Positions 2,943 through 23,709 of a DNA stretch of 24,070 bases are shown one piece after another. This stretch comes from a virus. The first letter of the stretch is position 1. The number at the start of each line of letters is the position of its first letter. The stretch spans positions 1 through 24,070 of the IMG/VR virus record IMGVR_UViG_3300013131_000244; one strand, given 5' to 3'. The notes beneath the pieces were generated by a model, which saw nothing but the letters and a program-made list of their open reading frames with translations, searched no databases and was not told the origin of the DNA. The position numbers and the translations under genes are program-made.

Positions 2943-3557
2943 ATGAGTATATACGACGAAAATTATAAAAAACCGACAGTTGAGACTGATGCAGAAAAGG
3001 TTACTCCATATACAGAAGTTACGGAGCAATTGACAACATTATTAGATTTTAAAGATTCTGTAGTATATCTTAATACAGATATTACAGATACTACTTTAAT
3101 AGATTTAATGATTAAAATACGGGCTATCCTAAATAATAGAGAAGAAGGTGATAAGTCGCCTATCAATCTAATTATCAATTCTAATGGCGGTGATGTATAT
3201 GAAATGCTAGGTATTATTGATTATATGCAATCATTGGATGTGCCTATCAATACAATTTGCAGAGGAAGAGCATTTTCAGCAGCAGCTGTTATATTAGCAT
3301 GTGGTACCGGTACACGGATGGTTAGTAAACATTCATGTGTAATGTTTCACGAATCTAGTTCTTTTCTTGAAGGAATTAAAATGAGTGACATGACAGCATA
3401 CTTAGCCAATCTTAAGAAAATTGAAAAGGATGTATGTGAACTATTAGCTACTAAATCTAATCAAAATGCCGAGTGGTGGTCGCAACAACAAAAGACTGAT
3501 ATGTTTTTATCAGCAGAACAGTTATTACAATATAAAATAATAGATCAAATAATTTAA
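2943..3557 (+). CDS. clpP: ClpP-like serine protease
   Basis: This 204-aa protein matches the ClpP/crotonase-fold protease family. The motif INLIINSNGGDVYE (74-87) corresponds to the ClpP strand and oxyanion-loop region. The Ser-His-Asp triad can be placed at S112 (in GRAFSAAAVI), H136 (in VMFHESS) and D186 (in TDMFLSAEQ). Spacings of 24 and 50 residues are close to those of bacterial ClpP. It ends with the usual ClpP motif in which a Ser-Ala-Glu-Gln helix leads to a Lys-Ile-Ile-Asp strand. ClpP forms tetradecameric chambers fed by Clp ATPases, and no ATPase is encoded here. In other phages ClpP-like proteins also serve as prohead proteases, but no capsid gene is nearby. The HD-domain gene begins two bases after its stop. 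Confidence 0.92.
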   Translation: MSIYDENYKKPTVETDAEKVTPYTEVTEQLTTLLDFKDSVVYLNTDITDTTLIDLMIKIRAILNNREEGDKSPINLIINSNGGDVYEMLGIIDYMQSLDVPINTICRGRAFSAAAVILACGTGTRMVSKHSCVMFHESSSFLEGIKMSDMTAYLANLKKIEKDVCELLATKSNQNAEWWSQQQKTDMFLSAEQLLQYKIIDQII

Positions 3558-3559
3558 TT

Positions 3560-4309
3560 ATGAGTTTAACAGCAGAAAAAATACATGATAATTGGATCGA
3601 ATTCCGTAGACGTGTAAATGAACTTTTTCCTACTAGGGCAAAAGCTTTGAATGAAATGTATGATTACTTTGAAGAACGTATGGTTACAATGCCAGCTTCA
3701 AGTGTAGATCATTTTCATAATGCATTTGAAGGTGGGTATGTCGACCACGTATTACGTGTTATGGACTGTGCAGAAAATTTATATAATTCATGGGAGTCGA
3801 TGGGAGCTAGTATAGATGGTTTTACTAAGGAGGAACTTATGTTTGCTGCAATGCATCATGACTTAGGAAAGGCTGGATTCCCTAATGACGGAGGAGAAAT
3901 TTATATCCCAAATGATTCGGAATGGCATCGTAAGAATCAAGGTAAGATGTATAAACATAATCCAAATAATCCATTTACTATGGTACCGGATCTAAGTTTA
4001 TGGAACTTACAACATTTTGGAGTACAAGTATCTTGGAATGAATATTTAGGTATTCGTATACATGATGGTCTGTATGATGATGCAAATAAACCATATTACA
4101 TTGCCAGAAGTGCTGACGCTAAGATGAGAAATAATTTAGCATTGATATTACATCATGCAGACCATATGGCAGCACGTATTGAATATGAACGTTGGGCTTC
4201 AGGCACAGCTGCCATTTCAAAGCCAACAGTATCAAAGCCTAAAGCCACTGTTAAATCAGATACGGCTATCAACGCCTCTAAGTTATTTAATGATTTATTT
4301 AAGGACTAA
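3560..4309 (+). CDS. HD-domain metal-dependent phosphohydrolase
   Basis: This 249-aa protein carries the HD signature: H63 (in YVDHVLRVM), the H100-D101 doublet (in MHHDLGKAG, 98-106), H168 (in RIHDG) and D201 (in HHADHMAARIE). This order, H...HD...H...D, is that of HD hydrolases acting on nucleotides or other phosphoesters with a divalent metal. The substrate cannot be deduced; dNTPs, cyclic nucleotides and alarmones are all possible. The last 35 residues are a Lys/Ser/Thr-rich linker and a short hydrophobic helix (SKLFNDLFKD). That C-terminal peptide could be a docking motif, for example for a sliding clamp, but this is speculative. The gene sits between the ClpP-like protease and a small membrane protein, with 2-base gaps on both sides. 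Confidence 0.9.
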   Translation: MSLTAEKIHDNWIEFRRRVNELFPTRAKALNEMYDYFEERMVTMPASSVDHFHNAFEGGYVDHVLRVMDCAENLYNSWESMGASIDGFTKEELMFAAMHHDLGKAGFPNDGGEIYIPNDSEWHRKNQGKMYKHNPNNPFTMVPDLSLWNLQHFGVQVSWNEYLGIRIHDGLYDDANKPYYIARSADAKMRNNLALILHHADHMAARIEYERWASGTAAISKPTVSKPKATVKSDTAINASKLFNDLFKD

Positions 4310-4311
4310 TT

Positions 4312-4596
4312 ATGTTAATTGCATTAATATCAGTATCAGTATTATTACTAGCCGCGTTGTTAGTAATTGTAAACTTATTACGTAAAGTTGAATCGCTAGA
4401 AGATTATGTTAGTGATTTAGAAACTTCCAATTTGGATTATTATACATTTTTTTCAAATTTAAAATCTAAAGTACGTGAATCATATTCTAGAATGAAAAAT
4501 ATTGACAGATTAGGTTCATTTGAAGCAGATGACGAAACTGGATTTATTTTTAAAGAACTTAAAGATATTGCTGATCAACTAAATGGGGACTTCTAA
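4312..4596 (+). CDS. small single-pass membrane protein
   Basis: This 94-aa protein has a strongly hydrophobic N-terminal helix (residues 1-23, rich in Leu/Val/Ile), then an amphipathic, probably coiled-coil region (24-70). A conserved-looking end follows, with the segment DRLGSFEADDETGF (64-77). From memory this last segment recurs in small proteins of cyanophages and other marine T4-like phages, always unnamed. It is probably anchored in the inner membrane with the bulk in the cytoplasm. The start follows AAGGA nine bases upstream of ATG. Its stop overlaps the sigma factor start (TAATG at 4594-4598), so the two are probably translationally coupled. Confidence 0.82.
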   Translation: MLIALISVSVLLLAALLVIVNLLRKVESLEDYVSDLETSNLDYYTFFSNLKSKVRESYSRMKNIDRLGSFEADDETGFIFKELKDIADQLNGDF

Positions 4597-5363
4597 TGAG
4601 TGCAGTTGAAGAATTTTATAAAGAGATGGAGATAGAAGCTGCTAATACCGTAGTAGTTTCTAAACGAGGCAGAAAGGCTAGTGATAAACAATATTTTACT
4701 GCTACCACAGAAAAGGCTATCATAGCTTATAATAAAGAAACGGATCAGTATTTACGTAATAAAATTTATCGTGAATATATAGACTATCCATTTAATAAGC
4801 TAGTAGAAAACATTTATCATACATCTAAATTTTCTTATTTTGATATTCCGTATGAAGACATTAAATGTGAAGTAGTAGCTTTCTTAAACGAAAAAATTCA
4901 TAAGTATACCGAAGGTAAAGGTAAAGCTTTTAGTTATTTTAGTATCATTGCTAAGAACTATTTAATTATTCAGAACAATTCAAATTATGCTAAATTTAAA
5001 CAACGTACTGATACTTCGTTAATTGACGAATCTCGAGATTTAATGACAGAAGTTAGTTTATCTTCTTATCAAGAATCTCTTAAAGACTTTGTAGACTTAT
5101 GGACGGATTGGTATGATAAAAATGCAAATGCAGTATTTAGCACTCGTAAAGATATTATAGTAGCAGATACAATTGTTGAGTTATTTAAGATACGTGAAAA
5201 TATTGAAGACTTTAATAAAAAGGCTTTGTATATTTTAGTTCGCGAACGTACTGGATTAAAAACTCAAAATATTACAAAAGTATTAACAACAATGCGCCGA
5301 GATTTTCTAAAAATGTTCTCGGTATATCAAAAGACCGGACGTTTTCCTAACAGTTCATTATAA
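4596..5363 (+). CDS. 55: late-transcription sigma factor, T4 gp55-like
   Basis: This 255-aa protein resembles gp55, the phage sigma factor that directs host RNA polymerase to late promoters. The recognisable part is a region-2-like helical block: YIDYPFNKLVENIYHTSKF (61-79), then EKIHKYTEGKGKAFSYFSII (99-118), then AKNYLII (119-125). It is longer than T4 gp55 (185 aa), with extra N-terminal residues including a basic SKRGRK stretch (22-27). The C-terminal helices (about 185-255) could hold the clamp or core contacts. In T4, gp55 works with gp33 and the gp45 clamp, neither of which is in this window. The start is fixed by the TAATG overlap. The gene is followed directly by the first copy of the putative late promoter motif. 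Confidence 0.85.
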   Translation: MSAVEEFYKEMEIEAANTVVVSKRGRKASDKQYFTATTEKAIIAYNKETDQYLRNKIYREYIDYPFNKLVENIYHTSKFSYFDIPYEDIKCEVVAFLNEKIHKYTEGKGKAFSYFSIIAKNYLIIQNNSNYAKFKQRTDTSLIDESRDLMTEVSLSSYQESLKDFVDLWTDWYDKNANAVFSTRKDIIVADTIVELFKIRENIEDFNKKALYILVRERTGLKTQNITKVLTTMRRDFLKMFSVYQKTGRFPNSSL

Positions 5364-5391: not shown

Positions 5392-5769
5392 ATGAGTGCA
5401 GATTACGAACTATTCAAAGGAACTACATTCTCAGATCTAATGCGCGATGTATATCACAATTCTAAAAAGAAGTCGCGCCAAATTGATACACTAATACAAG
5501 AACTACAACCGTTAGTTAAAAACGTGGGTGATGCAACTGTAATAGTACCGTTAATTGCAGAATATTTAGAAGTATCTGTTAAGAACGATGATGCGTTAGT
5601 TAAACTAGCTTCTATTGTACAACGTATAGTTTCTGCAACTGCTAAAGGCGAAGATGATGGCAATGAATTTGGTTTATCCGATGAAGAACGTAAACGTTTG
5701 ATCGAAGAGGCTGAAAAAGAAGTTAAGATTATCAAAGCCGCTGATGCGTCGGCGAAAGAGGATAAGTAA
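5392..5769 (+). CDS. conserved small phage protein, probably structural or assembly
   Basis: This 125-aa protein is mostly helical and acidic. Its N-terminal block contains FKGTTFSDLMRDVYHNSKKK (8-27). The middle (about 40-85, with VGDATVIVPLIAEYLEVSVK) is hydrophobic and probably a helical bundle. The charged tail (98-125) is Glu/Lys-rich. I recall similar sequences as unnamed proteins beside the spike and sigma genes in marine T4-like phages, which suggests a baseplate or assembly role; this is inference. It is the first gene after the putative late promoter, and its stop overlaps the next ATG by one base (TAATG, 5767-5771). Confidence 0.85.
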   Translation: MSADYELFKGTTFSDLMRDVYHNSKKKSRQIDTLIQELQPLVKNVGDATVIVPLIAEYLEVSVKNDDALVKLASIVQRIVSATAKGEDDGNEFGLSDEERKRLIEEAEKEVKIIKAADASAKEDK

Positions 5770-6764
5770 TGTTTACTATTGCACGTGTAATAGATTCAAG
5801 TATAGCATATACACCATCTATACGAAATTTTGCTGGTAATGATATAGAACTACCGTACGGTACTATTAAAGTACGTGGTCGAGCGGGCAGCTCTACTGCG
5901 CCTATTGATGTATTTGCTACACCTTTAGACTTATCAAATATTAATATTCCATTAAAAGACGAATTGGTATTAATTTCTTCTGGTTATGATGCGTCTAACG
6001 GTAATCGTTTTTATTATTCATCAATATTTAATGTACAAAATACGTTAAATACCAATAGTATTCCTAACTATTTTACATTTGAACAATCTACAGTTAGTGC
6101 TAATACTTACAATTCCAATCCTATTAAAAGTCGTACTAATATAGCTGCTCCCGAGTATATTTCACATACAGAACAAGAAATTATACCATTACAGCCATAT
6201 GAAGGCGATAAAATATTTAGTTCTAGATACGGCAGTGCTATAAGATTTTCTTCTAATATTAATAAAGGACAGTCTAAATATTTTAAATCAACTACTCCAT
6301 GGAAAGGATCCGGTGTTAATAGTCCCATTATAATGTTAACAGCTGGTTTAGCTAAATCCGCAGATTTCTATACAATAGAAAAACCGGATGAAGATAAAAG
6401 TTATATTTACCTTGCAAGTGACCAGAGTATTACAATGTCACCTGCACAGGCAAAAATTGGAACGGCACAATTACCAAGTAATTATAATAACGGCCAAATA
6501 ATTATCGGATCCGGCAGATTATTTTTTAATGCTCGACAAGATGATATAACACTAGTATCTAAATCTACTGTAAATGTAGCTACTCCTTCATGGGCTATTG
6601 ATATGGATAAATTTTTTACTATAGTAGAATCTTTAACACAGGAATTAGTTAATTTAGCACAAGGATCTGCTACATTTGCAACCGGCGCCGGGCCTACGGG
6701 TGTTTCTACTAACTTAGTAACATTACAGAATATCTTATCACAACTTAAAGCAATGAGGCAATAA
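5769..6764 (+). CDS. baseplate hub/central spike protein, OB-fold (gp5-like)
   Basis: This 331-aa protein has the layout of T4-like hub/spike proteins. The N-terminal OB-fold-like domain (about 1-95) contains YGTIKVRGRAGSST and a segment ending in LVLISSGYDA. A middle motif at about 144-160, GDKIFSSRYGSAIRF, matches a signature I recall from spike proteins of marine myoviruses. Two beta-strand-rich elements follow: SYIYLASDQSITM (about 212-224) and GQIIIGSGRLFFNARQDDI (about 241-259). These suggest a short beta-prism needle. A helical tail (275-331) could be the trimerisation or tape-measure contact. T4 gp5 also contains a lysozyme domain and this protein does not; the cell-wall hydrolase is the separate next gene. 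Its stop is two bases before that gene's start. Confidence 0.78.
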   Translation: MFTIARVIDSSIAYTPSIRNFAGNDIELPYGTIKVRGRAGSSTAPIDVFATPLDLSNINIPLKDELVLISSGYDASNGNRFYYSSIFNVQNTLNTNSIPNYFTFEQSTVSANTYNSNPIKSRTNIAAPEYISHTEQEIIPLQPYEGDKIFSSRYGSAIRFSSNINKGQSKYFKSTTPWKGSGVNSPIIMLTAGLAKSADFYTIEKPDEDKSYIYLASDQSITMSPAQAKIGTAQLPSNYNNGQIIIGSGRLFFNARQDDITLVSKSTVNVATPSWAIDMDKFFTIVESLTQELVNLAQGSATFATGAGPTGVSTNLVTLQNILSQLKAMRQ

Positions 6765-6765
6765 T

Positions 6766-8037
6766 ATGCCATTATCTAAAGAACAATTATTTTTATCTTT
6801 AGCTAATACGTTTTCGTCGACAACTACATCTGGTCGAGCATCCACAATTGCTAATATTCTTTGGCAGTATACGCTAAATATAACTCCTACCAGTACCGCG
6901 GCAGCTACAAGTTTAGAATTTTTAATTAATCAATTTAATAACTATGAAGGTAAAGAACATTCATTAGCTGATGCACTCACTGTGGTGTTACCGTTGTATG
7001 CACAACAATTAGCAGCTGGCATGCAACCGGCATTCACCGGGACGGCTCCTACTCAGCCTTTACCTAATTTTCGAGCACTAATGCAAAGTAATACTAATAG
7101 TGAAGATCCTGCTAGATCTTGCGCTGATAGGCTTTCTTCTGAAATACATGCATGGCTATCAAGTGGTACCGCTGTGAATAATTCTAGCGGCGCGATTATT
7201 CCATGGGGTACTCCCGACGGTTCGTCTACTGGATATAATAAATCATTTATTATGACATCTGAAAATATAGCGCCGTTATGGTCGCCGGCCGATGAAATTA
7301 TATTATCCGAAGAACAGCAACGTACCATTGACCTTTTAAACCAAATTGGATATGAAGATACGGTTGATGAATATGCTAGACTTGCACAGGCTCAGTTAGA
7401 AAATAAACAAAGATATTCCGCAGCTGCAAAACAAATTACACAAGCAGATATTCGTGATATACTATATAATACTCCATTAAAATATCGTAGTACGTTAGGC
7501 GATGAAATTGTATTGGAAGCTTCAAAAGATGTAGGAATGAAAGAAGGCGGCCCGAACTGGGGCGGTATACCGCCAGGACGTACTAGAAGCAGTCAACCAT
7601 ATAAGCAAGTATTAGGAGAAGGTAGGATCGAAGAAATGATGACTAATACAGGACTAAATACTGTGGCGCAGTTTTTAAAGTATGGCGATGGTTATTATTG
7701 GTGTGCAGGAGCTGTTACATCATGGTGGAAAGCATGCGGGTGCCCAGTACCAATTGGCCCGGCTGCATGTAAAAACTGGTCATCTTGGGGTAGATCTCGT
7801 GGACAATTTAGTGAAACAATACCAATGATTGGCTCTGCTGTACCATTTGGAGATTCTGAGGATACTGCTAATCATATAGGTATAGTAGCTGGAGTTGTTG
7901 AAGTAGACGGCGTAATAAAATCTATATATACTATTGAAGGTAATACTAGTAGTGGTTATGACCGCAATGGATTATATTGTTGGTATAAAATTGCTTCTAG
8001 AAATCGTATGGTAGGATTTGTACATCCTAAAAAATAA
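6766..8037 (+). CDS. CHAP-domain peptidoglycan hydrolase, tail-associated
   Basis: This 423-aa protein has a C-terminal CHAP (NlpC/P60-like) amidase/endopeptidase domain, about residues 245-423. The probable nucleophile is C313 in YYWCAGAVTSWW, the general base is H370 in ANHIGIVAG, and the polar partner is E391 or N393 in IYTIEGNTS. CHAP enzymes cut peptide bonds in peptidoglycan. The first 240 residues are an uncharacterised, mostly helical, Ala/Thr/Gln-rich part that could dock it on the baseplate. Its place directly after the spike gene, inside the baseplate block, suggests a virion enzyme that opens the wall during DNA entry rather than a holin-dependent lysin. It has several extra cysteines (C324, C326, C335, C405). 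GAGG precedes the start. Confidence 0.88.
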   Translation: MPLSKEQLFLSLANTFSSTTTSGRASTIANILWQYTLNITPTSTAAATSLEFLINQFNNYEGKEHSLADALTVVLPLYAQQLAAGMQPAFTGTAPTQPLPNFRALMQSNTNSEDPARSCADRLSSEIHAWLSSGTAVNNSSGAIIPWGTPDGSSTGYNKSFIMTSENIAPLWSPADEIILSEEQQRTIDLLNQIGYEDTVDEYARLAQAQLENKQRYSAAAKQITQADIRDILYNTPLKYRSTLGDEIVLEASKDVGMKEGGPNWGGIPPGRTRSSQPYKQVLGEGRIEEMMTNTGLNTVAQFLKYGDGYYWCAGAVTSWWKACGCPVPIGPAACKNWSSWGRSRGQFSETIPMIGSAVPFGDSEDTANHIGIVAGVVEVDGVIKSIYTIEGNTSSGYDRNGLYCWYKIASRNRMVGFVHPKK

Positions 8038-8056
8038 ATCTCGTAATTTAGTTCTC

Positions 8057-8084
8057 AACATATTTATATAAAAATAGAAAACTT
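8057..8084 (+). promoter_or_regulatory. putative late promoter, copy 2
   Basis: ATATTTAT at 8060-8067, in the context ACATATTTATATAAAA, lies 17 bases before the ATG at 8085. It sits in one of the few real intergenic gaps of the baseplate region (8038-8084). Its flanks match copy 4 at 23278 almost exactly (CAACATATTTATATAAAA). Confidence 0.5.
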
Positions 8085-8552
8085 ATGGATAGTAAATCAT
8101 TTTTAAAAGCTTTACAACTTATCATACGTGAAGAAGTGCAAAAAGCAGTTCGTACTGAAGTTAAAAAATTATTAGCAGAACAATCGTCACAACATGTTGT
8201 TGAACATGATATACGTATGAGTTCTCATGCTATACCTAAAAAGAAAACAAATAAAACATTTTCTAAAGATCCATTGTTAAATGATTTATTAGCAGAAACT
8301 GCTGCTAATCCAATGGCTGTCGCAGATGAATGGCCTGCAATGGATTTTCGTGCAGAGATGGCACAAGGATTTGGTATGATGCGGTCTGCAGGGCCTGATA
8401 TTCCATATGCTCCTGCTGTTGCTCCTAGCCATGATGTCAATGGCAATCCAGTTAATACTAATAACGAAAATGTAGCTACTGTCGTTAATGCAATGACAAA
8501 AGACTATTCTGCATTAATGAAAGCAATCGATAAGAAAAAAGGTTTTAGATAA
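8085..8552 (+). CDS. small structural or assembly protein, function unknown
   Basis: This 155-aa protein has an N-terminal amphipathic helix rich in Glu/Lys (about 4-34) that looks like a coiled coil. A variable Ser/Lys linker follows, then the segment FSKDPLLNDLLAETA (59-73), a Pro/Ala-rich middle and a C-terminal helix ending in DYSALMKAIDKKKG. I recall similar ends in unnamed proteins next to gp25 in marine T4-like phages. Position suggests a baseplate wedge or assembly factor (a gp53-type role is possible), but no motif proves it. It starts the transcription unit behind promoter copy 2 and overlaps gp25 by one base (TAATG). Confidence 0.8.
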   Translation: MDSKSFLKALQLIIREEVQKAVRTEVKKLLAEQSSQHVVEHDIRMSSHAIPKKKTNKTFSKDPLLNDLLAETAANPMAVADEWPAMDFRAEMAQGFGMMRSAGPDIPYAPAVAPSHDVNGNPVNTNNENVATVVNAMTKDYSALMKAIDKKKGFR

Positions 8553-9109
8553 TGGCTAGGCCAATATATAGATATCAACCTATCAATTTGTTTCCTGATC
8601 GTACGATCGGTATAAAACTACCATTTAATCGTAGTGTACCTGGGAACAATTCTAGATCTAATTCTGATTCATATTCTGGTAATATTAACGGTGGTGGACT
8701 ATTTTCGTTGTCTAAAACAACCGAAGAACAGGCTACTAGCAACTTAGTTAATTTAATGTTAACTGAGACCGGAGAGCGTATTATGCAACCAAATTTTGGA
8801 ACAAATCTACGTCGAACTCTTTTTAATCAAAACACAGAAGATTTGCAAACAGCTGTTGATATAGTAATTAGAGAAGCTATAACATATTGGTTACCTTATA
8901 TTGAATTAGTAGATTTAATAATATCACGTGATGTAGATAGATATATTTTTTCTGTTAAAATAGTATATCGCGTAACTAACTTCCCTGCAGAACAGGTTAT
9001 TAATGTGTTGTTATCTGAAAATACTATACAAGTTATTCCGGTGGTTGCATCTACAACTAATATTACACCGACATTGGTACAAGTTAATGAATTTGGAGGA
9101 TTTTATTAA
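8552..9109 (+). CDS. 25: baseplate wedge subunit, gp25-like
   Basis: This 185-aa protein contains the gp25/IraD-like fold at about 55-150. The hallmark is NLVNLMLTETGERIMQPNFG (64-83), followed by LRRTLFNQNTED and a helix over the wall-facing segment AVDIVIREAITYWLPYIELV (101-120). The gp25 family is the most conserved wedge component of contractile injection systems and nucleates sheath assembly. T4 gp25 is 132 aa; the extra length here is an N-terminal Gly/Ser/Asn-rich extension of about 50 residues. The gene sits directly before gp6, its structural partner in the wedge, and both junctions are TAATG overlaps. Confidence 0.93.
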   Translation: MARPIYRYQPINLFPDRTIGIKLPFNRSVPGNNSRSNSDSYSGNINGGGLFSLSKTTEEQATSNLVNLMLTETGERIMQPNFGTNLRRTLFNQNTEDLQTAVDIVIREAITYWLPYIELVDLIISRDVDRYIFSVKIVYRVTNFPAEQVINVLLSENTIQVIPVVASTTNITPTLVQVNEFGGFY

Positions 9110-10980
9110 TGCAAGTTCAAAAAGACGTTAGATATTTAAATAAAGATTTTGGTCAATTTAGACAGAATCTTATAAATTTTACACGTCAATATTTTCCTAA
9201 TACATACAGTGATTTTAATGAATCGTCTCCAGGTATGATGTTTATTGAAATGGCTTCATATGTAGGGGATGTCTTATCATATTATACAGATCAATCTTTT
9301 AGAGAGTCGCTACTTAAGACATCTAAAGAAGATGCAAATGTATTAATGTTATCGCAACTATTTGGTTATAAACCAAAACTTAACTCTCCTGCTACAGTAA
9401 CTCTAGAAGTTTATCAGTTAATACCTGCTATTGGAAGTGGCGTCGATGCACGCCCAGATTATAGATATGCATTATCTATTAAAGCTGGCATGCAAGTTTC
9501 GTCTACTACATCTAATATAACTTTTAGAACAATACAACCAGTTGATTTTAATAGTAATACTGCAGATGATCCTACAGAAATTTCTGTGTATGAATTAGAT
9601 AATGCAGGTAATGTATTATATTATCTATTAAAAAAGTATGTAGACGCTGTCAGTGGCCGTGTTATAACGACAGAGTATTCGTTTAATAATCCTAAACCAT
9701 ATGATAAAATATCACTGCCAGAAACAAACGTTTTGGATATTATAAAAGTTACCGATAGTGAAGGCAATACATGGCATCAAACAGATTATTTAGCACAAGA
9801 TACTGTATTTGAAGATATTTTAAATATTCCTTATAATGACCCTGATTTAGCTGTATATCGTAGTACAGTACCATATATTTTAAAATTACGTAAAACTCCT
9901 AGACGATTTGTAACACGTGTAAGATCAGATTTACGTACTGAGCTGCAGTTCGGATCAGGTATTAGTTCGGATGCTGATGAAGAAATTATTCCAAATCCTA
10001 AAAATGTTGGATTAGGATTAGATTATTTAGAACGTACAACAAATTCAAATATTGATCCGTCAAACTTTTTATATACTAGTACGTATGGATTGGCTCCGTA
10101 TAATACTATATTAACAGTTCAATATAGCGTAGGTGGTAGTATTGATGATAATGTAACATCAAATGTATTAACCGTTATTAATTCAATTGAATATACTACA
10201 AATCCATTTAACGTAGATCTTACATTTGTTAAAACATCTGTTGCAGTAAATAACGCTGGTCCGGCTATTGGTGGTAAACAACGTGATGAACTTGAAAGTA
10301 TACGACAAAATGCCATGGCAAGTTTTGCTGCACAAAACAGAGCAATTACAAGAGAGGATTATATCGTACGTTGTTATTCAATGCCAGTAAAATATGGTTC
10401 AGTGGCTAAAGCATATGTAGTAGCTGATCAGCAAGTCAATGCGTATGATATTACATATCCACGTGAAACTATTCCTAATCCGTTAGCTTTAAATGTATAT
10501 GTATTAGCATACAATGCAAATAAAAACTTTGTATCCCCTAATACAGCATTACAAGAAAATTTACGTACATATCTTTCAAATTATAGAATGTTAACTGACG
10601 GTATTAATATAAAAACTGCACATATCATAAACATTGGTATTGAATTTGATGTTATACCTCAACCTAATTATAATAGTAACGAAGTAATATTAACATGTAT
10701 CAATCGTTTAAAGACAATGTTTAATAATGATAGAATGCAAATTAACGGATCTATCAATATTTCTAATGTTGTAAGTGATTTAGATAGATTAGAAGGCGTA
10801 CAAAGTATACCTAGATTAGAGATACATAATCTTTATGATACAAATGCTGGTTATTCTGGTAATGTATATAACATTAATTTAGCAACACGTAATAATATTG
10901 TATATCCTAGTTTAGATCCATGTATTTTTGAGATCAAATATCCGGATACAGATATTGTAGGTAGAGCCATTAGCATATAA
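9109..10980 (+). CDS. 6: baseplate wedge subunit, gp6-like (baseplate J)
   Basis: This 623-aa protein matches gp6, which forms the inner baseplate ring as dimers in each wedge. The N-terminal block includes DVRYLNKDFGQFRQNLINFT (5-24), the NESSPGMMFIEMASYVGDVL segment (38-57), YYTDQSFRESLL and the LFGYKPK loop (84-90). These are typical of T4-like gp6. A baseplate J-like part follows in the C-terminal half, including QNRAITREDYIVRCYSMP (about 409-426), then the KTAHIINIGIEFDVIP strand region. Its length is close to T4 gp6 (660 aa). It begins with a one-base overlap with gp25, and GGAGG is visible nine bases or so upstream inside gp25. Confidence 0.93.
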   Translation: MQVQKDVRYLNKDFGQFRQNLINFTRQYFPNTYSDFNESSPGMMFIEMASYVGDVLSYYTDQSFRESLLKTSKEDANVLMLSQLFGYKPKLNSPATVTLEVYQLIPAIGSGVDARPDYRYALSIKAGMQVSSTTSNITFRTIQPVDFNSNTADDPTEISVYELDNAGNVLYYLLKKYVDAVSGRVITTEYSFNNPKPYDKISLPETNVLDIIKVTDSEGNTWHQTDYLAQDTVFEDILNIPYNDPDLAVYRSTVPYILKLRKTPRRFVTRVRSDLRTELQFGSGISSDADEEIIPNPKNVGLGLDYLERTTNSNIDPSNFLYTSTYGLAPYNTILTVQYSVGGSIDDNVTSNVLTVINSIEYTTNPFNVDLTFVKTSVAVNNAGPAIGGKQRDELESIRQNAMASFAAQNRAITREDYIVRCYSMPVKYGSVAKAYVVADQQVNAYDITYPRETIPNPLALNVYVLAYNANKNFVSPNTALQENLRTYLSNYRMLTDGINIKTAHIINIGIEFDVIPQPNYNSNEVILTCINRLKTMFNNDRMQINGSINISNVVSDLDRLEGVQSIPRLEIHNLYDTNAGYSGNVYNINLATRNNIVYPSLDPCIFEIKYPDTDIVGRAISI

Positions 10981-21424: not shown

Positions 21425-23272
21425 ATGTCAGCTACGCCATCTGTATTTAGACCAGTTCGGGCAAATGATGTCCATGTACGACCGTTCCATGTTTACAAAC
21501 ATTACTATGTAAGTAACGTTACAGCGTCGAATTGCAATCCAGCAAATACAGGCTCGTCGTACTATGCACGTACTGCATTACATAATACTAATTTAATCAA
21601 TACAAGTGATCCGACTTCAACGTTTTTATTAAATACTGACGGGTCTGATCAAAATATTGAGTGGCGTAGTTTAGATCATAGATTTTATCGATATCCATAT
21701 GACTGGGCTCGTTCTAGCGAATTGACGAATCCTAGAACAAACTATAAATTTTTATTTTACTCAGCATCGACGTTGGCTATACCATATTTAGATGCCGGCG
21801 AACGTATAAAACCAAATTCTGTCTTTCTTGAAGCAACTGTCTCTGGACAGTATATTAATTTGATCGACGATGGTTATGGTAGTTTACGTGACCCGTTAAT
21901 ATTAACAGCTTCGTTTGCATCTTCTAGCTATTGTCAAATGTATTATACGTTTAATAATGCATTTCGTAGATTTAATTCAAATTTTGGATTGATATCGGAT
22001 GGTAAATTAGAATATACGTTACAACGTAAAACTATTAACAGTACTGTTAAAAATGTTGATATACAACAAGGGGTTACATTAATTAACGGAGTTTCAGATA
22101 TACATAATTCTGGATTATCTGGATACTTTGACGGACAAAGTTATATACGATTATCGAACGATAAAATATATAATCGTTTTAATCACTGTGATAGATGGAC
22201 TATTTCATTTTGGTTGTATCCTGACTCTGCTTCATTATCAGCTGCAACTAGTAGTGCAGGAACAATTATATCAAAAGGATCTGTTGTACGAGAATTGCAG
22301 CCTATACCGAATACTACAAATACTGGCACGGTATTAGGATATGCAGATACTGTATACGATAGGCCGAATCCGTTTACTGGCGATTGGACTAATTATAAAA
22401 CTCCGATGGAAATATCTGTAGGTACTGCTCTTGACGTCTTTTATGTAGAATCTGGATATGTATCAGCAAGTTATGTCGACGCGCTGGCAAGTGCGCCCGC
22501 TGTAATGTTTAGATCGAGCGACGGTATAAGCAGTACTGAAGTACGTGCTCCAATATCTGGTTCTGAATGGCAACATTATGCTATTGTTTATGACGGAGAT
22601 CTCGTTTCAATATACCGTAACGGTATTAGCTCTGGAGTTGCTGCTCCATTACCAAAATATGCATCGGTTAATGCGGCTGATATAATGATAGGAGCTACAG
22701 ATACTAATTTTAAACATGGATATAAAGGTAACATCGCTGAAATACGTTTTTATGATTATACAGTATCAAACATAGGTATTCAATCATTAGCAAATCGAAA
22801 TTTTTTATCAGGCTCTTTATATCAAACTAATGTAGCTGGTAACGTATTTTATCGTAATGAACAAGTTGTTGTCACATCGCCAATGCCTAAATATAATTCC
22901 GGATCGGGTTTATTTAATCAACAATGGAATCTATCATATCGCGGACAACGTACTATTTATGAAAATGAAGTAATGGTACGTATACCTGCAGATACTATGA
23001 ATGTAAGTGTAAATCCATCAGCAACTTTCCGCCGCGGTAGCGGTATTGATAATAATTGTAATACAGCTGGACCTAATAATGGAGCCGAACGTTATAATGA
23101 ACCTGGGGAATTTAGATTAACTGGATTTTTATCGGGTAGTATGTTACCATATATTACAACCGTAGGCTTATATAATCCAGAAGGGCAATTGTTAGTCATT
23201 GGTAAATTAGCTCAAGCAGTACAAAAACGTGATGACGTTCCGACAAACATTATTATTCGTTGGGATTACTAA
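21425..23272 (+). CDS. tail protein with LamG/concanavalin-like jelly roll
   Basis: This 615-aa protein has a central LamG-like lectin fold at about 228-475. The signs are GLSGYFDGQSYIRLSND (230-246), RWTISFWLYPDS (257-268), EWQHYAIVYDGDLVSIYRNG, and YKGNIAEIRFYDYTVSN. These domains often bind sugars, so host surface recognition is plausible, but binding is not shown here. The N-terminal 220 residues are an unrecognised beta-rich structural part. The C-terminus (about 510-615, with YENEVMVRIPADTMNVSVNP, then PYITTVGLYNPEGQLLVIGK and IIIRWDY) is a module I recall from marine phage tail proteins; its end is shared with the preceding gene. Most likely a tail fibre or adhesin component. The ATG lies 12 bases after the previous stop with no evident ribosome site. 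Confidence 0.83.
   Translation: MSATPSVFRPVRANDVHVRPFHVYKHYYVSNVTASNCNPANTGSSYYARTALHNTNLINTSDPTSTFLLNTDGSDQNIEWRSLDHRFYRYPYDWARSSELTNPRTNYKFLFYSASTLAIPYLDAGERIKPNSVFLEATVSGQYINLIDDGYGSLRDPLILTASFASSSYCQMYYTFNNAFRRFNSNFGLISDGKLEYTLQRKTINSTVKNVDIQQGVTLINGVSDIHNSGLSGYFDGQSYIRLSNDKIYNRFNHCDRWTISFWLYPDSASLSAATSSAGTIISKGSVVRELQPIPNTTNTGTVLGYADTVYDRPNPFTGDWTNYKTPMEISVGTALDVFYVESGYVSASYVDALASAPAVMFRSSDGISSTEVRAPISGSEWQHYAIVYDGDLVSIYRNGISSGVAAPLPKYASVNAADIMIGATDTNFKHGYKGNIAEIRFYDYTVSNIGIQSLANRNFLSGSLYQTNVAGNVFYRNEQVVVTSPMPKYNSGSGLFNQQWNLSYRGQRTIYENEVMVRIPADTMNVSVNPSATFRRGSGIDNNCNTAGPNNGAERYNEPGEFRLTGFLSGSMLPYITTVGLYNPEGQLLVIGKLAQAVQKRDDVPTNIIIRWDY
23149..23176 (+). repeat. 28-base repeat, copy B (C-terminal tail module)
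   Basis: This is the partner of the copy at 21289-21316, with one mismatch. It lies in frame in the C-terminal module of the LamG tail protein. Conservation at the DNA level, beyond the protein level, suggests recent duplication or gene conversion between the neighbours. Confidence 0.75.
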
Positions 23273-23301: not shown

Positions 23302-23709
23302 ATGGCATGGCATTCAAAGTCAAATATTCGGGCAAACGCGATTAAATACGGTTACCGATCAGGGTTTGAACATAAAATATCAGAACAGTTAGAACAATTA
23401 GAAATCGATCCTAAATACGAACAAACGGTTGTTAAGTATACTATACCAGAACGTCAATCAAAGTATACAGTAGATTTTACATTACCAAATGGTATATTAA
23501 TTGAGACGAAAGGTCGATGGATGACAGAAGACCGTAAAAAACATTTACTAGTTAAAGAACAACATCCGGAACTAGACATACGTATTATCTTTCAGAGTGC
23601 AAAAACTAAAATACGTAAAGGTTCAAAAACATCATATGCAGACTTTTGTGATAAGCATGGAATCTTATGGGCAGAAAAAAAGATTCCAGAAAGTTGGCTA
23701 ATCTCTTGA
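23302..23709 (+). CDS. endonuclease I, T7-type Holliday junction resolvase
   Basis: This 135-aa protein belongs to the phage T7 endonuclease I family (restriction-endonuclease fold), which cuts four-way junctions and branched DNA. The catalytic set is complete: E23 (in RSGFEHKIS), D58 (in YTVDFTLP) and the E68-T69-K70 triplet (in LIETKG). The spacings of 35, 10 and 2 residues equal those of T7 (E20, D55, E65, K67). The N-terminal SNIRANAIKYGYRSGFEHK region is also typical. T4 itself uses the unrelated endonuclease VII (gp49), so this is a replacement within a T4-like gene order. The gene has its own putative late promoter and an AAGGA ribosome site, and a hairpin overlaps its stop. Late expression would suit debranching of DNA before packaging. 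Confidence 0.95.
   Translation: MAWHSKSNIRANAIKYGYRSGFEHKISEQLEQLEIDPKYEQTVVKYTIPERQSKYTVDFTLPNGILIETKGRWMTEDRKKHLLVKEQHPELDIRIIFQSAKTKIRKGSKTSYADFCDKHGILWAEKKIPESWLIS

Follow-up and report, generated by a model that had tools for sequence, protein, structure and literature searches.

Where a phage tail carries a wall hydrolase, the enzyme is usually built in as a single fixed domain of the spike, the hub or the tape-measure protein. In bacteriophage T4 the lysozyme lies inside gp5, an OB-like spike stands at the centre of the baseplate, and gp25 and gp6 are its neighbours. The window analyzed here, a virus record of 24,070 bases that is itself a fragment, holds a baseplate operon for a contractile tail in which a spike-like gene is directly followed by a gene encoding a 423-aa protein with a C-terminal CHAP domain. 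The locus raises the question of what a separate wall hydrolase does at this position. The original prediction held that the CHAP enzyme, cleaving peptide rather than glycan, replaces the lysozyme of the T4 spike. Our analysis favors a related but different answer, to which we assign a probability of roughly 0.75: the protein is a tail-carried (virion-associated) peptidoglycan hydrolase for entry, and it sits as interchangeable cargo in a variable gene slot.

Results

The genes of the baseplate operon described here are on the + strand. The spike-like gene (331 aa; 5769..6764) is preceded by a gene for a conserved 125-aa protein (5392..5769), whose family was found in 52 of 88 related loci and in 116 of 244 loci of a larger set. 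The gene for the 423-aa protein (6766..8037, ATG start) is an open frame beginning just after the spike-like ORF, whose stop at 6764 lies one base ahead. An intergenic stretch (8038..8084), of which the part from 8057 is common to two relatives with an empty slot (L083 and L084), leads to g155, a gene for a conserved 155-aa protein (8085..8552) that forms the downstream edge of the slot. Next are genes for a gp25-like baseplate wedge/sheath initiator (8552..9109; PF04965, E 1.1e-11) and a gp6-like baseplate wedge protein (9109..10980; phrog_219, E 4.7e-19; Baseplate_J at 19.4 bits, under the cut-off of 21.1), followed by larger tail proteins. An A/T-rich motif after the slot gene showed no enrichment in the window (9 matches vs. 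12.7 expected).

Outside this core, the window encodes a UV endonuclease UvdE upstream of the baseplate operon (91-1143; PF03851, E 2.2e-55) and a ClpP-type protease (2943-3557; PF00574, E 4.2e-31) with an HD-domain phosphohydrolase directly after it (3560-4309; PF01966), the latter gene being found again in 28 of the 88 related loci. A conserved 255-aa protein (4596-5363), present in 41 of these 88 loci and lacking a Pfam match, recalls by eye a phage late sigma factor, a resemblance that may or may not reflect function. Towards the other end, a concanavalin-like lectin domain (Laminin_G_3, E 5.2e-14) was recognized in a tail protein (21425-23272) and is a candidate receptor-binding part, and a Phage endonuclease I gene lies beyond the tail fiber genes (23302-23709; PF05367, E 8.4e-54).

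The prediction of a 423-aa CHAP protein directly after a lysozyme-free, spike-like gene was borne out. PF05257 (CHAP) matched residues 306-393 (E 2.7e-6) with 28.2 bits against a curated cut-off of 26, and phrog_9589, an endolysin family, matched the protein at E 1.7e-8. The copy of the protein in the locus L082 is 75% identical and scored 32.3 bits for CHAP; since it also occurs in the same gene order, the frame is not a chance ORF. CHAP enzymes use a Cys/His pair plus Glu or Asn. In the CHAP region (aa 241-423; 7486..8034), inspection by eye showed that Cys313 (codon 7702-7704), His370 (7873-7875) and Asn393 (7942-7944) were kept in 14 of the 14 CHAP rows of our alignment A5, and that position 391 holds Glu or Asp. 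As a result of this conservation, which extends to the comparison of the window with its 75%-identical copy in L082, we consider it highly improbable that the protein is a scaffold or structural component with an inactive CHAP domain or no role in entry, even though 12 of 20 slot proteins scanned gave no Pfam family.

Structural comparison agreed with the domain assignment. Residues from about 238 to 423 of the predicted model matched NlpC/P60/CHAP structures in VIA-align with Z values up to 11.4 (8ev4; 112 residues aligned, 2.8 A), including a diffocin baseplate hydrolase (8v3w_H, Z 10.8), an endolysin (6ist, Z 10.1) and a phi812 baseplate protein (9euf_E, Z 7.3). Foldseek returned nothing for this model at E <= 0.001, its best match being an NlpC/P60 structure (6sqx, E 0.24). 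Mean pLDDT of the model was 66.6, with values of about 45-77 in the N-terminal part; since MAFFT spread the stand-alone N-terminal proteins over the CHAP region in A5, this part was effectively modeled from two sequences, and its three helix pairs are unreliable. No match to the slot protein was found in the PDB by phmmer. A search of viral contigs with the CHAP protein as single query found nothing, and the same search with a two-sequence alignment recovered the contig of L082 and nothing else. The 423-aa protein has no hydrophobic segment of the export or signal-anchor kind (maximum KD-19 1.36).

No Pfam or PHROG family matched the spike-like ORF, hence no lysozyme was recognized in it; likewise, among 43 spikes scanned at E <= 0.01, none matched a lysozyme PHROG, the one match being to an unnamed family. 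The model of the spike-like protein (pLDDT 82.7) predicts an OB-like N-terminus, a beta-rich middle and a C-terminal helix pair. The best Foldseek match was the central spike of PVC (9qgm; probability 0.93, E 0.019), with nothing at E <= 0.001, and VIA-align gave OB folds at Z values to 7.7, a P1 baseplate chain at 6.7 (163 residues) and VgrG at 6.5 (145 residues). A PDB profile search with the 43 spikes had best E values of only 0.12-0.27, VgrG and Pvc8 among them. Since the VIA-align values lie under the tool's safe level, identification of the protein as a spike rests on the trend in fold together with its position.

We compared the locus with relatives comprising the best 80 matches for each of four gp6 queries, for which the gp6-like protein was the bait, three loci reached via the spike and three phage records. 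Before counting, we removed 18 loci, namely L001, two loci from lysis regions and contigs that had been collected a second time, leaving 270, some of them near-identical, with flanks of at most 10 kb around the baseplate genes. Since the gp6 lists comprised at least 600 matches in two of three scans of wider kin and in the scan with L045, of which the best 80 were taken, this census covers part of the family. A spike was found in 157 loci (20 of the 157 spikes being incomplete at the start), compared with 258 loci for g155, 268 for gp25 and all 270 for gp6. In 25 of the 157 loci with a spike the slot was empty, with no ORF of at least 60 aa between the spike and g155 (or gp25) and gaps of 0-58 bases, while the remaining 132 held 210 slot ORFs.

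The content of occupied slots was diverse. In an earlier census (194 ORFs, 140 loci), we scanned 117 of 118 cluster representatives, a 1603-aa protein being left out, against Pfam at E <= 1e-3. The families recognized were CHAP (10 representatives), VanY (9), Peptidase_M15_4 (7), Phage_lysozyme (6), GH19 (4), GDSL lipase (3), Hydrolase_2 (2), PG_binding_1 (2), NAGPA (1), C39_2 (1) and M15_3 (1), categories that may overlap. Much slot content has no recognized domain, since two per-protein scans gave no Pfam family at E <= 0.001 for the 12 of 20 slot proteins mentioned above. Seven loci (L104, L123, L158, L165, L167, L160 and L154) have large slot proteins (735-1251 aa; 1073 aa in L123) for which no Pfam family was found at the same threshold.

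Several slots carry enzymes on a main adaptor family with recognizable N- and C-terminal halves. In L205, a single 463-aa protein consists of both halves followed by CHAP. The adaptor is split over two ORFs, one with the N-half and one with the C-half, in L063, L064, L077, L184 and L207; in three of these loci both ORFs have a recognized enzyme, the N-half being joined to VanY and the C-half to GH19 in L063, to CHAP and GH19 in L184, and to CHAP and VanY in L207. In the slot protein of L138 (1209 aa), Phage_lysozyme was recognized (E 3e-21) and VanY fell just short of its cut-off. Of the 66 ORFs matched by the N-half profile, 58 are slot ORFs and the other 8 precede g155 on contigs without a spike; for the C-half profile, the 59 ORFs matched were divided 46 and 13.

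CHAP itself was confined to the same position. Using a search profile grown from the window's own domain, we found 22 CHAP-like ORFs (E <= 1e-3) among the 7591 ORFs of at least 50 aa in six frames of the 270 loci: 19 were in the slot, 3 were upstream of g155 on contigs without a spike, and none was elsewhere. One of these matches, in L015, is partial, and the Pfam domain of that protein is C39_2. Because baseplate genes served as the anchor for collecting the loci, this confinement says little about the remainder of each genome; in 13 longer records, PF05257 occurred in two, at the slot position in both.

These counts bear on the claim of a lysozyme replacement. That the enzyme is a separate hydrolase of the baseplate operon is supported by context, with all 22 CHAP-like ORFs at the same place and GH19 lysins elsewhere in isolated relatives (see below). 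As a settled design, however, the replacement does not hold, since the slot is empty in 25 of 157 loci, including two of the nearest relatives; these empty slots, together with GH24, GH19, M15/VanY and C39 domains in other slots, rule out a fixed substitute for lysozyme. Likewise, a wall-piercing tip that cleaves peptide rather than glycan describes only the present state of the window phage, because the slot elsewhere holds glycan-cutting enzymes (GH24, GH19).

The 240 residues ahead of the CHAP domain had been described as unknown, a description that no longer applies to residues of about 38-147. A profile of six stand-alone slot proteins (L029, L033, L045, L056, L057 and L249), built without the window and L082, was searched against the 7591 ORFs and matched both, with E values of 2.1e-9 for L082 and 1.7e-6 for the window, where the match spans residues 38-147. 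Five of the six stand-alone proteins are in the slot; the sixth, from L033, is truncated and is separated by 51 bases from the g155 downstream of it, on a contig without a spike. Therefore, residues of about 38-147 correspond to a slot protein in its own right, here joined to CHAP. We delimit the N-terminal module as aa 1-147 (6766..7206), with homology for about 38-147, which stands alone in the slots of other phages; it is followed by a linker region (aa 148-240; 7207..7485) that is helical in the low-confidence model.

Membership of this N-terminus in the main adaptor family, of which L205 and L063 are examples, was considered and rejected. An iterated HMM search gave a best window E of 4.9, the window was absent from the matches of the N-half and C-half profiles, and hhalign probabilities were 0.1-0.5%. 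In the stand-alone profile, the matches following the stand-alone group were L060 (E 9e-4) and L052 (E 4e-3); since the iterated search placed these two in the adaptor family but the N-half/C-half profile search did not, the bridge that they form is weak.

Comparison of the window with its nearest collected loci, ranked by gp6 identity, showed that the slot changes over short distances: it is occupied in L082 (92%) and empty in L083 (86%) and L084 (82%). Homology between the window and L083 or L084, as detected by blastn, ends at 6629, inside the spike gene, and restarts at 8057, 20 bases past the CHAP stop. Thus, the last 44 residues of the spike and the entire slot gene differ together; the C-terminal tail of the spike (about 44 aa; 6630..6764), which includes the motif TGAGPTG, cannot be aligned to the tail of L083/L084. 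An N-terminal stretch of the spike (5772-6152) is likewise too diverged for blastn in these comparisons. Across the census, slot content was unrelated or one-sided in 391 of 1934 locus pairs with gp6 identity of at least 65%, pairs that are not independent of one another.

We also compared spike C-terminal motifs with slot occupancy, in post hoc tests for which the patterns were chosen after viewing the sequences. A first pattern was present in 45 of 132 loci with an occupied slot and 3 of 25 with an empty one (P = 0.03), and at the level of 60% clusters in 20 of 61 and 3 of 16 (P = 0.37). A looser pattern (GP followed by S or T within the last 70 aa) was present in 72 of 132 vs. 3 of 25 (P = 6e-5, kinship ignored). 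Among loci with gp6 at least 55% identical to that of the window, the motif occurred in all 8 with an occupied slot and in none of the 6 with an empty one; with the bound lowered to 53%, the counts were 8 of 16 and 1 of 9. Taken together, these results are mixed and constitute a lead, not a result.

Since the closest named matches and profiles, CHAP and PHROG alike, label the CHAP part an endolysin, the protein could instead be a free endolysin that acts with a holin late in infection, its gene merely being located in the baseplate operon. We consider this unlikely. Scans against Pfam and PHROG covering most ORFs of the 24-kb fragment recognized no holin or spanin near the slot gene, which is tightly packed between the spike and wedge genes, and two hydrophobic ORFs (1310-2380 and 4312-4596) gave no holin match in the scans run. 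Because the record is a 24-kb fragment, the phage's own lysin and holin are out of view. Furthermore, the N-terminal module stands alone in other slots, which gives the protein a tail-associated part, and the L083 and L084 phages do without a slot gene.

Isolated relatives provide additional evidence against a free endolysin. Microcystis phage Mel-JY01 (PP395634) and Flavobacterium phage immuto (MW353176) share with the window the order spike - slot - g155 - gp25 - gp6, and both have a compact GH19 lysin elsewhere. In immuto, a GH19 gene adjoins a holin (43688-44735), and no hydrolase was found in the slot by searches with hydrolase Pfam families and a Pfam scan of the slot protein. In Mel-JY01, a 200-aa GH19 protein is encoded at 92920-93522 with no annotated holin beside it, and part of the slot protein (343 aa; 161423-162454) is paralogous to it (38% identity, E 5.1e-26), although Pfam alone missed GH19 there. 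The slots of these phages differ from that of the window in content, neither the GH19-related protein of Mel-JY01 nor the immuto protein, which has no Pfam match, being a CHAP protein. Outside the slot, lytic transglycosylase SLT domains occur in small ORFs of 179 and 184 aa in Mel-JY01 (150899-151255) and in G004, the record of L020 (45117-45455), and immuto has a VanY domain (158955-159317) in an open frame of 941 aa that is distant from its baseplate genes.

The record that favors a lysis function is G001 (168,635 bases), which contains L205 and, L082 apart, has the closest CHAP fusion. Searches with nine Pfam hydrolase families and the Mel-JY01 lysin found no lysin outside its slot; since no second lysin matched in this record, the phage may have no lysin other than the slot enzyme. 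This would be accounted for by a tail hydrolase that doubles as the lysis enzyme, a dual use that we regard as less probable still than a free endolysin, since the two jobs are separate in Mel-JY01 and immuto and since G001 may be incomplete or carry a lysin outside the families searched.

Discussion

The slot gene is encoded within the baseplate module, between the spike and gp25/gp6, and occupies the same place in relatives. Together with its domain content, this position is most consistent with a tail-carried hydrolase used at entry, and we infer from the genes that the protein is present in the virion, docks to the spike, is enzymatically active and has its time of action at entry. In the mechanism that we propose, the N-terminal module would be the baseplate component of the protein, probably bound to the spike or close to it. 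The CHAP domain, carried on this module, would cut wall peptide at the puncture site upon tail contraction. The slot would be a cargo position whose enzyme is exchanged or lost between related phages, sometimes along with the C-terminal tail of the spike.

Separate baseplate hydrolases are already known from diffocin, from phages Deep-Blue and Vp4, and from phage CBB. Like T4 gp5, the system of the window would combine an OB-like spike (as modeled), a wall hydrolase for the piercing tip (as inferred here) and gp25/gp6 neighbors; unlike T4, in which lysozyme is within the spike, the spike of the window is without one and the enzyme is encoded separately, as a CHAP protein. The domain order of T4 gp5 and a spike with C-terminal lysozyme in phage RaK2 are given in the same source (PMC3622015). 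In phage vB_PcaM_CBB, a lysozyme-domain gene (CBB_239) lies between gp25-like and gp5-like genes (CBB_238-240; PMC5259590), likewise a separate wall-enzyme gene; however, the gp5-like protein has its own C-terminal lysozyme and the extra enzyme is a lysozyme, not CHAP. The hub-hydrolase CD1368 of diffocin has a C-terminal NlpC/P60-type peptidase and is encoded beside the spike gene (PMC10996793), as in the window, and its hydrolase part (8v3w) ranks near the top of the structures matched by our CHAP model. It differs by a gp27-like hub N-terminus plus a lytic transglycosylase, where the protein of the window has an N-terminal module of about 147 aa that, given the poor model of this part, may or may not be a hub. 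Bacillus phages Deep-Blue (Gp189) and Vp4 (Gp110) have baseplate hub lysins that lyse the wall at entry (PMC11406892), a role that we attribute to the window protein on the basis of its genes; the hub lysins are hub-fold fusions from phages of Gram-positive hosts. An open-access literature search found no paper on the slot or on Mel-JY01, although one may still exist.

A more specific and more tentative extension, which we think possible but would not yet favor, is that the slot is a spike-linked cargo system in which a small docking module, its gene adjoining that of the spike, carries interchangeable wall-cutting enzymes, the tail of the spike is exchanged with the cargo gene, and an empty slot is viable. 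Such a system could take the form of one chain, or of two chains with one enzyme each, e.g., a peptidase and a glycosidase. Spike-bound effector cargo exists in type VI secretion, and if the cargo system is true, the slot might be regarded, by analogy, as its phage counterpart.

For the annotation of uncultured phages, a lysin-like gene in this slot should not be called a lysis enzyme without further evidence. The slot system would also make the mode of attachment of the enzyme to the spike testable. Since the slot is a defined position in which the enzyme is swapped, doubled or missing within a baseplate that is otherwise kept, the tuning of penetration to the host wall would become a testable question.
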